From positions 16,244,001 to 16,308,000 of the forward strand of contig NC_091973.1 of assembly GCF_036711975.1 (NCBI RefSeq): a DNA stretch of 64,000 bases. The letters run 5' to 3'. The notes beneath the pieces are model-generated. The model saw nothing but the letters and a program-made list of their open reading frames with translations. It was not told the origin of the DNA and ran no database searches. Source of the DNA: Onthophagus taurus. Taxonomy: Eukaryota > Arthropoda > Insecta > Coleoptera > Scarabaeidae. Made by a program: the position numbers and the translations under genes. This document shows positions 43,310 through 44,601 of this stretch, in pieces. How positions within the stretch are numbered: position 1 is the stretch's first letter; each line of letters starts with the position of its first letter.

Positions 43310-44212
43310 ATGCATCGATCAAGCAAACGGTCTGGTCGAGGTATTGTGAATACATTAATCAATAAGCTTCCGATAGAACTACATTTGCCAGGTTATAATT
43401 ATTGCGGTCCGGGAACCAAATTGGTAAAGAGATTAGTTCGTGGAGATCAGGGAGTGAATAAATTAGACGACGCCTGTAAAAAGCATGATATTGCCTACGC
43501 AGCAACATCGAATTTAGCTGAGCGACACATAGCCGATAAAGAGTTGTATAAGACAGCGAAAGAGCGGTTGAGAAGTAAAGACGCAAGCTTAGGAGAGCGA
43601 CTATCGTCGGCGTTAGTGTCAACGATAATGAAAGGAAAAACAATAATGGGTATGGGAATGCAAATTCGTGCCCTAAGACGTAGAGGGACAACTCGTCAGA
43701 AGTTGAAACGTGGCGGTAAGTTGTCGTTTACGCAGGCAATGAACTTAGTGCGGCGAGCGATTGCACAGACCAACAGTACGAATACAAAGGGAGATGTACA
43801 AGTGGGTTACAATCTGTTGAAACCTTATCAAGGTAGAATACTTAAACCGCGCGGAAAAATAATCAAGATTCCCAAGAAGGGAGGTTTTTTACCCTTAATA
43901 CTTGCAGCTTTGGGTGCTCTCGGTTCTTTAGGCGGAGGTGCAGCAGCAATTGCAAAAACCGTAAACGAAGCAAAAATAGCAAGGGAGCAGTTACAAGAAG
44001 CCGAACGTCACAATCGGGCTATGGAACCAAAAGCGATCGGCAGCGGTTTGTATATTAAACCATATAAGCAAGGTTGCGGACTAGTCATGAAAACGGTATC
44101 ACGAAAATCAAAGCGACTAAAACGCACCAAGAGGGCGAACAAAATTGGTACAGGAATGTTTATTAATCCATATAAAAAGGGTTGTAGTTATAAAACTGTA
44201 GCAAAAAACTAA
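43310..44212 (+). CDS. Minor capsid protein with phospholipase A2 domain
   Basis: The N-terminal 100 residues form a parvovirus-VP1-type phospholipase A2 domain. It has the calcium loop YNYCGPGTKL and the catalytic helix LDDACKKHDIAYA with the His-Asp pair. In parvoviruses this domain opens the endosomal membrane during entry, and similar domains are known in adintovirus capsid genes. The middle is basic. Near residues 195-225 is a hydrophobic Gly/Ala stretch (LPLILAALGALGSLGGGAAA), and the C-terminus has two GTG/GSG-(L/M)-(Y/F)-I-(K/N)-PYK repeats. A TATA-like TTAAATATAA lies about 40 bp upstream of the ATG. The gene ends GCA AAA AAC TAA TAA, a slippery heptamer directly before the stop. Confidence 0.9.
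   Translation: MHRSSKRSGRGIVNTLINKLPIELHLPGYNYCGPGTKLVKRLVRGDQGVNKLDDACKKHDIAYAATSNLAERHIADKELYKTAKERLRSKDASLGERLSSALVSTIMKGKTIMGMGMQIRALRRRGTTRQKLKRGGKLSFTQAMNLVRRAIAQTNSTNTKGDVQVGYNLLKPYQGRILKPRGKIIKIPKKGGFLPLILAALGALGSLGGGAAAIAKTVNEAKIAREQLQEAERHNRAMEPKAIGSGLYIKPYKQGCGLVMKTVSRKSKRLKRTKRANKIGTGMFINPYKKGCSYKTVAKN
44203..44209 (+). promoter_or_regulatory. Slippery heptamer A AAA AAC for -1 frameshifting
   Basis: In the PLA2 gene frame the last codons are gcA AAA AAC TAA. The heptamer is the canonical -1 slippery site used, for example, at the gag-pro junction of some retroviruses. The -1 frame is open from here into the protease at 44293. Six bases near 44220 (ACCCCA) could pair with TGGGGT near 44290, but I see no clear nearby pseudoknot. 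Confidence 0.75.
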
Positions 44213-44601
44213 TAAAAATACCCCAACATTCTTTAACGGATGTAGAGTTAAGGCGATATGCACGAGCGCTTGATCTGTTAAACTTTCGTGGGGTGTACAT
44301 GAGAAACAATTTACCGAAGAAAATCCGAAAACGAGAGAGTAGGATAATAAATCTTGATAATCGTACGGGTCCCGGTACTCACTGGACAGCTTACAACAAG
44401 GATGGTGTAAATGTTAACTACTTTGACAGTTATGGAGATTTACGACCACCGATTGAAGTGGAGAAGTATTTTATATCGGATGGGGGGAGAAATATTGTGA
44501 GGTATAATTATCGACGATATCAAAAAGAAGATCAAACAAATTGTGGACAATTGTGTTTGCATTTCTTAGATAGTTTAAATACCAAGGAAGTATCCGTGTA
44601 A
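44209..44601 (+). CDS. Adenain-like protease, read by -1 frameshift
   Basis: Adenovirus-type cysteine protease: GTHWTAY (catalytic His), NYFDSYGD (acidic residue), and QTNCGQLC (Gln and catalytic Cys) in the right order. Its conserved N-terminal region (LTDVELRRYARAL, then NFRGVYMR) lies before the first ATG at 44299 and has no start codon of its own. The frame is the -1 frame of the PLA2 gene, so the protein is best explained as a PLA2-protease fusion made by frameshifting at 44203-44209. The protease would cleave capsid precursors during assembly. Confidence 0.8.
   Translation, partial: LIKIPQHSLTDVELRRYARALDLLNFRGVYMRNNLPKKIRKRESRIINLDNRTGPGTHWTAYNKDGVNVNYFDSYGDLRPPIEVEKYFISDGGRNIVRYNYRRYQKEDQTNCGQLCLHFLDSLNTKEVSV

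Follow-up and report, generated by a model that had tools for sequence, protein, structure and literature searches.

Polinton/Maverick-like elements of the beetle Onthophagus taurus carry a slippery sequence at the point where the gene for a phospholipase A2 (PLA2)-domain protein passes into that for an adenain-like cysteine protease. We found this arrangement in two elements, 1 and 2, within a 64,000-nucleotide (nt) stretch of contig NC_091973.1 (positions 16,244,001 to 16,308,000; here the window, in whose own numbering positions are given), and then at junctions across the genome. Element 1 encodes a double-jelly-roll (DJR) capsid protein, an A32-type ATPase, an rve integrase and the adenain-like protease, a gene set of Polinton/Maverick (adintovirus-like) type. 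Its PLA2 open reading frame (ORF) ends in the heptamer A AAA AAC, and the protease follows in the -1 frame. The heptamer is best explained as a programmed -1 ribosomal frameshift site joining the PLA2 ORF to the protease, an explanation that we hold to be highly probable. A sequence-only reading of the window had arrived at the same interpretation for element 1, and our results support it and extend it to divergent families.

The last codons of the element 1 PLA2 ORF are GCA AAA AAC TAA (heptamer and stop at 44203-44212), as that reading had them, and the heptamer therefore lies in the phase needed for tandem -1 slippage. As also noted there, the -1 frame leads into the protease without a stop, although its opening lies 9 nt upstream of the heptamer, at 44194, and not at the heptamer itself. 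The first methionine of this frame is residue 36, and it falls downstream of a conserved N-terminal block, again as had been claimed. The ORF matches the Pfam family PF08398 (Phospholip_A2_4) at 54.9 bits, above the cut-off of 23.9, and an 'uncharacterized protein [Onthophagus taurus]' is 98% identical to its product. By this match the product is a candidate for the label 'capsid protein'; the major capsid protein is encoded by a separate DJR gene.

The string AAAAAAC is not in itself rare, occurring 40 times in the window against 44 expected by shuffling; it is the phase and place of the element 1 site that are unusual. Among 1795 codon positions in the bodies of PLA2 genes (12 representatives), in-phase A AAA AAC did not occur, in-phase T TTT TTA occurred once, and the general pattern X XXY YYZ (Y = A or T, Z not G) occurred 12 times. 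In these bodies AAA accounts for 71% of lysine codons and AAC for 30% of asparagine codons. At the junctions of the heptamer-bearing clusters described below we met no case of AAG or AAT replacing AAA AAC, A-type heptamers being counted as AAA AAC by definition.

To place element 1 among its relatives, we assembled 104 junctions from the 290.8-megabase genome (L001 to L103, L001 being element 1, together with element 2). The loci were drawn from the best 150 matches of each protease search, so that junction counts are minima. In 93 of the 104, the protease frame is -1 relative to PLA2 and the overlap of the two frames holds an in-phase slippery heptamer (86 A AAA AAC, 7 T TTT TTA); these include L080, L097 and L102, in which the reading of the frames varied with the PLA2 match chosen. 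At a threshold of 90% DNA identity, the 102 junctions in which both genes are present fall into 12 clusters, nine of which carry a heptamer: family A, family B, the element 2 group, the L095, L096, L097, L083 and L101 groups, and family C. Divergence among them is considerable. The proteases of elements 1 and 2 are about 50% identical, and family B, at 57% protein identity, reads A AAA AAC TAG. Overlaps of 16 nt in family A, 10 nt in family B and 19 nt in element 2 mean that the overlap starts near the heptamer. Family C lacks A AAA AAC; it has T TTT TTA 46-52 nt upstream of the PLA2 stop, just within the open -1 frame, and this lineage probably uses that different slippery site.

A second way of reaching the -1 frame would be slippage of the polymerase on an A run or T run to give mixed mRNA. 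The sites are indeed runs of six or seven equal bases, from which such slippage could reach the same frame. The runs are short, however, and the codon phase X XXY YYZ and the final C (or A after T) are kept, neither of which polymerase slippage should need. We regard this account as very improbable.

Relatives beyond this genome were sought with protein profiles. A profile of five proteases found 5273 relatives and one of three PLA2 proteins 1796, the latter search scoring only the 7988 candidates that shared most words; the best 120 of each were examined. The PLA2 relatives came mostly from metagenome assemblies, with four from O. taurus, and their named hosts are seven species, all Coleoptera (Onthophagus taurus, Popillia japonica, Anoplophora glabripennis, Aquatica leii, Pyrocoelia pectoralis, Photinus pyralis and Molorchus minor). 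In 111 of these best 120 PLA2 relatives, Lys-Asn (KN) stands 0-2 residues before the stop (112 within the last 15 residues; 58 of 64 near the end after redundancy reduction), compared with 117 of 31972 dipeptide positions elsewhere in the same proteins (0.37%). The residue preceding KN is variable (S 50, P 21, Q 18, K 8, T 7, A 4, R 2, E 1). We read terminal Lys-Asn as the protein signature of the A AAA AAC heptamer. Read in the -1 frame, the heptamer gives KK and a residue whose codon starts with C, and KK[LPHQR] occurs 8-14 residues upstream of the block in 35 of the 55 proteases with enough called sequence. The heptamer at the end of the PLA2 gene is thus echoed at the protein level in related elements, and the arguments from heptamer, phase, frame and N-terminal block made for element 1 recur in the 93 junctions and the 111 relatives. 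Scans of viral contigs and of one genome-contig collection gave no confirmed relatives with DNA, and the DNA evidence therefore comes from one genome.

The C-terminus of the element 1 PLA2 protein carries repeats of the type G-x-G-[LM][YF]IxPYKxGC. Most of the 120 relatives (P0123-P0242) likewise have at least one repeat, of the type G-x-G-[LF]-Y-[ILV]-K-P-Y-x-x-G-[CLF]-G, just upstream of the junction. The motif is basic and often bears cysteine, features reminiscent of the adenain cofactor carried by adenovirus pVI; by this analogy we speculate that, lying beside the junction, it could act as an adenain cofactor in cis.

The part of the protease frame that precedes the first ATG is under purifying selection as -1-frame coding sequence. 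Between element 2 and L091 this block shows four synonymous and no nonsynonymous changes over 28 codons, and the proportion of nonsynonymous differences (pN) was below that of synonymous differences (pS) in all 12 pairs compared, the difference being weak in the most distant pair, L001-L084 (pN 0.45, pS 0.58). In a structure model the block forms a helix (16-25) and a strand (31-36), residues 13-131 superpose on residues 2-136 of the adenovirus protease adenain, and the catalytic residues of this C5 peptidase occur in order on an adenain fold. Because the superposition includes the block, a start at Met36 would delete both the helix and the strand. A Pfam C5 peptidase search of the O. taurus genome gave no match, but its controls were also matchless and the search is uninformative.

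These results contradict the idea that the difference in frame reflects decay of a once-fused gene. One-frame PLA2-protease ORFs do exist, as at least two proteins (P0243 and P0244; single-sequence search, 47 candidates) and as the genomic copies L073 and L099, in which both genes occupy a single frame. Set against them are the separation of frames with an in-phase heptamer in nine clusters, the purifying selection on the -1 frame, and at least 57 full-length genome matches to the element 1 protease at 96-100% identity, 56 of them stop-free. Conservation of the junction already speaks against decay, to which we give next to no credence. Nor is fusion by a spliced mRNA a plausible source of the block. 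AG dinucleotides do lie between heptamer and block in element 2, family B and family C, whereas family A and L083 have none from the heptamer to the LT codon, so that a splice there would leave the block incomplete; the available text of a vertebrate Maverick survey also describes intronless ORFs (PMC8097293). We judge splicing to be a most unlikely explanation.

A further alternative is that the protease is translated from a start of its own, with ribosomes reinitiating after termination at the PLA2 stop or using a non-AUG codon, and that the heptamer is incidental. In its favor is L100, which lacks the heptamer and in which an ATG directly before the block, sharing the sequence ATGA with the PLA2 stop, starts the protease; one further copy of this lineage, broken, is among the best 150 matches. 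In addition, P0003 (83% identical to the element 1 protease) has its called start just before the block, many metagenomic proteases start MKLP, and back-translation indicates that PLA2 relatives ending in KNG (8 of 120) could hold ATGA, so that some metagenomic lineages may carry both ATG and heptamer. The called M, however, may stand for TTG or GTG in a gene finder's output, and three listed proteases begin with V. In 92 of the 93 heptamer-bearing loci no -1-frame methionine precedes the block, and an independent start leaves the in-phase heptamer at 93 of 104 junctions unexplained. We consider independent initiation unlikely, though less so than the other alternatives. An ATG-started protease with the same block was what the sequence-only reading had expected to count against a frameshift; it is found in L100, but there the heptamer is missing. 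The exception fits a frameshift at the other junctions, since L100 has its own ATG and no heptamer. As judged from the junctions, the frameshift layout is a family-wide feature, with one lineage in which an ATG replaces the heptamer. The protease N-terminus of P0106, from a metagenome assembly, is the same as that of L100.

Several observations weigh against programmed frameshifting. Nine of the 102 two-gene junctions do not fit (L041, L042, L069, L072, L073, L081, L082, L099 and L100), and L043 and L044 have no PLA2 match. Most of the misfits look decayed, and in L041, L042, L069, L072, L081 and L082 the two frames are related differently or the junction has been lost; L100, unlike the decayed misfits, is open and ATG-started. 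L031, the exception among the 93, is a single variant copy that has both the heptamer and a private ATG before the block. The family C site is less certain because one PLA2 body also contains T TTT TTA in phase. Eight of the 120 PLA2 relatives lack KN, five of them having G[LFIV]FL close to the C-terminus, which could, at a guess, hold T TTT TTA, and 20 of the 55 proteases lack KK[LPHQR]. Metagenomic relatives are protein sequences only, in which KN and KK[LPHQR] stand in for DNA, and the subfamilies, being related by descent, do not count as separate trials.

Evidence for a downstream stimulator is uneven, and this too counts against efficient shifting. A stem-loop predicted just downstream of the element 1 heptamer has a minimum free energy of -28.7 kcal/mol (z score -2.67; 3 of 200 shuffles as good), none of 200 shuffles was as good over 121 nt, and L101 has a strong predicted hairpin (z score -3.96, 0 of 200 shuffles as good). 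No significant fold was found in family B, element 2, L095, L096 or family C, where the fraction of shuffles as good ranged from 0.23 to 0.96. The folding predictions indicate that a stimulatory structure is not a conserved part of the site. According to the available text of a recoding review (PMC5009743), frameshifting at a high level always depends on stimulators except in special cases, and the rate of shifting could therefore be low. A pseudoknot scan gave an empty result with every sequence and is uninformative. We set aside a very strong fold in L083, which is a palindrome about 60 nt downstream in an apparent protease insertion, and a stem shared by families A and B: both fold near +8, with the pairing register off by two bases in an ungapped alignment, and we claim no covariation. 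The L083 palindrome is near-perfect and is apparently inserted in the protease frame just after an FRG motif.

We infer the following course of expression. Most ribosomes would terminate at the PLA2 stop and release a PLA2-domain protein of virion type, a role that rests on kinship with the parvovirus VP1 domain as described in the available part of PMC5803895. A fraction would slip back one base on A AAA AAC, a heptamer ranked among those on which mammalian ribosomes shift most readily (PMC5009743, in the part available), and continue into the adenain-like protease frame. The product would be a PLA2-protease fusion at a sub-stoichiometric ratio, and its purpose may be to supply the particle, as it assembles, with a little protease by way of a virion partner, as retroviral Gag-Pro does. 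We think it likely that insect, or at least beetle, Polintons share as a clade a conserved -1 frameshift, at either of two interchangeable sites (A AAA AAC or, in some lineages, T TTT TTA), that makes the protease a low-dose extension of the PLA2 protein.

Mouse mammary tumor virus gag-pro is an example of retroviral -1 frameshifting of the A AAA AAC class, and the retroviral protease is an aspartic one. The beetle junction resembles gag-pro in heptamer class and phase, in the extension of a putative virion protein by a maturation protease and, in family A, in a predicted stem-loop 8 nt downstream. It differs in that the element is integrase-bearing double-stranded DNA, the partner is a PLA2-domain protein and not Gag, the protease is an adenain-like cysteine protease, and no conserved stimulator was found. 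A 2024 preprint on adintoviruses proposes a hypothetical Penton frameshift by KnotInFrame and notes a similar relationship for Hexon-Adenain (PMC11071296). It shares with our case the broad virus group and a -1 slip near the 3' end of a virion gene, once into Adenain, but concerns other genes in one hypothetical paragraph and leaves a PLA2 partner unmentioned. Among insect Mavericks, Sf Maverick 1 and 2 of Spodoptera have separate CAP (PLA2, VP1-like) and PRO (adenain-like) ORFs; the available text of that paper, by contrast, contains neither 'overlap' nor 'start codon', and its two mentions of 'frameshift' concern errantiviruses (PMC5803895). Vertebrate Mavericks encode an adenovirus-like protease and a major capsid protein, but their second module comprises integrase, minor capsid, PW, major capsid and protease, and PLA2 or phospholipase is absent from the available text (PMC8097293). 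In the available text of PMC8097293, PMC9683012, PMC8363768 and PMC10120064, 'frameshift' denotes decay, assembly error or search settings. Among the listed results of our literature search, which did not extend to the original adintovirus paper, no PLA2-protease frameshift was found. The novelty claimed by the sequence-only reading holds to that extent for the PLA2 partner, but a frameshift into adintovirus Adenain had already been hypothesized (PMC11071296).

Neighboring genes in the window are listed with the junction features below. Beside element 1, a 332-residue ORF on the minus strand (51776-52771) had no Pfam match at E 0.01 and is by eye a possible piece of a protein-primed PolB. The small gene after the element 1 protease (44619-45137, 45138-45364) has an in-frame stop at 45135-45137 that is absent from the corresponding stretch of L046; the element 1 copy is therefore probably not fully intact, and copies without this stop exist. 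Two ORFs of about 185 residues beside and in element 1 (40914-41465 and 46939-47505) are distant relatives (26% identity, E 2e-15), and the second had no Pfam match. Adjoining element 1, 37759-40507 is by eye a non-long-terminal-repeat retrotransposon (zinc-knuckle ORF, endonuclease-like ORF). On the element 2 side, 56200-59099 contains a 183-nt direct duplication (95%) and 104-nt repeats in minus-strand ORFs.

Table 1. Junction features and neighboring genes of elements 1 and 2, in window positions.
Feature	Position	Strand	Details
Element 1 PLA2-domain ORF	43310..44212	+	ATG 43310; 300 residues; stop TAA 44210-44212
Element 1 adenain-like cysteine protease	44194..44601	+	-1 frame; 135 codons stop to stop
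Element 1 slippery heptamer A AAA AAC	44203..44209	+	PLA2 phase, gcA AAA AAC TAA; directly before stop
Predicted stem-loop, possible stimulator	44218..44296	+	Starts 8 nt past element 1 heptamer
Element 1 major capsid protein (DJR)	45554..46816	+	Pfam PF21738, E 1.5e-101
Element 1 A32-type packaging ATPase	48314..49042	+	Pfam PF04665, E 1.6e-7
Element 1 rve integrase	50670..51620	+	Pfam PF00665, E 2.9e-13
Element 2 PLA2-domain ORF	62680..63522	+	46% identity to element 1 counterpart
Element 2 protease	63501..63899	+	-1 frame; layout as in element 1
Element 2 heptamer A AAA AAC	63510..63516	+	Followed by TTG TAA (to 63522)

A protease made by frameshifting is a hallmark of retroviruses, from which it is best known, and is not yet established for this lineage of DNA viruses. 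A large review of recoding includes herpesvirus cases, and the words polinton and adenovirus are absent from its available text (PMC5009743). The site suggests a route by which the protease could enter the particle, the virions of such elements being unobserved according to the available text of PMC8097293. A clade-wide site would account for the protease ORFs without start codons in these elements and would correct gene models in insect genomes. It would also mean that the dosing of a protease by way of a virion partner had evolved convergently, as an independent counterpart of Gag-Pro in a eukaryotic double-stranded DNA virus lineage.
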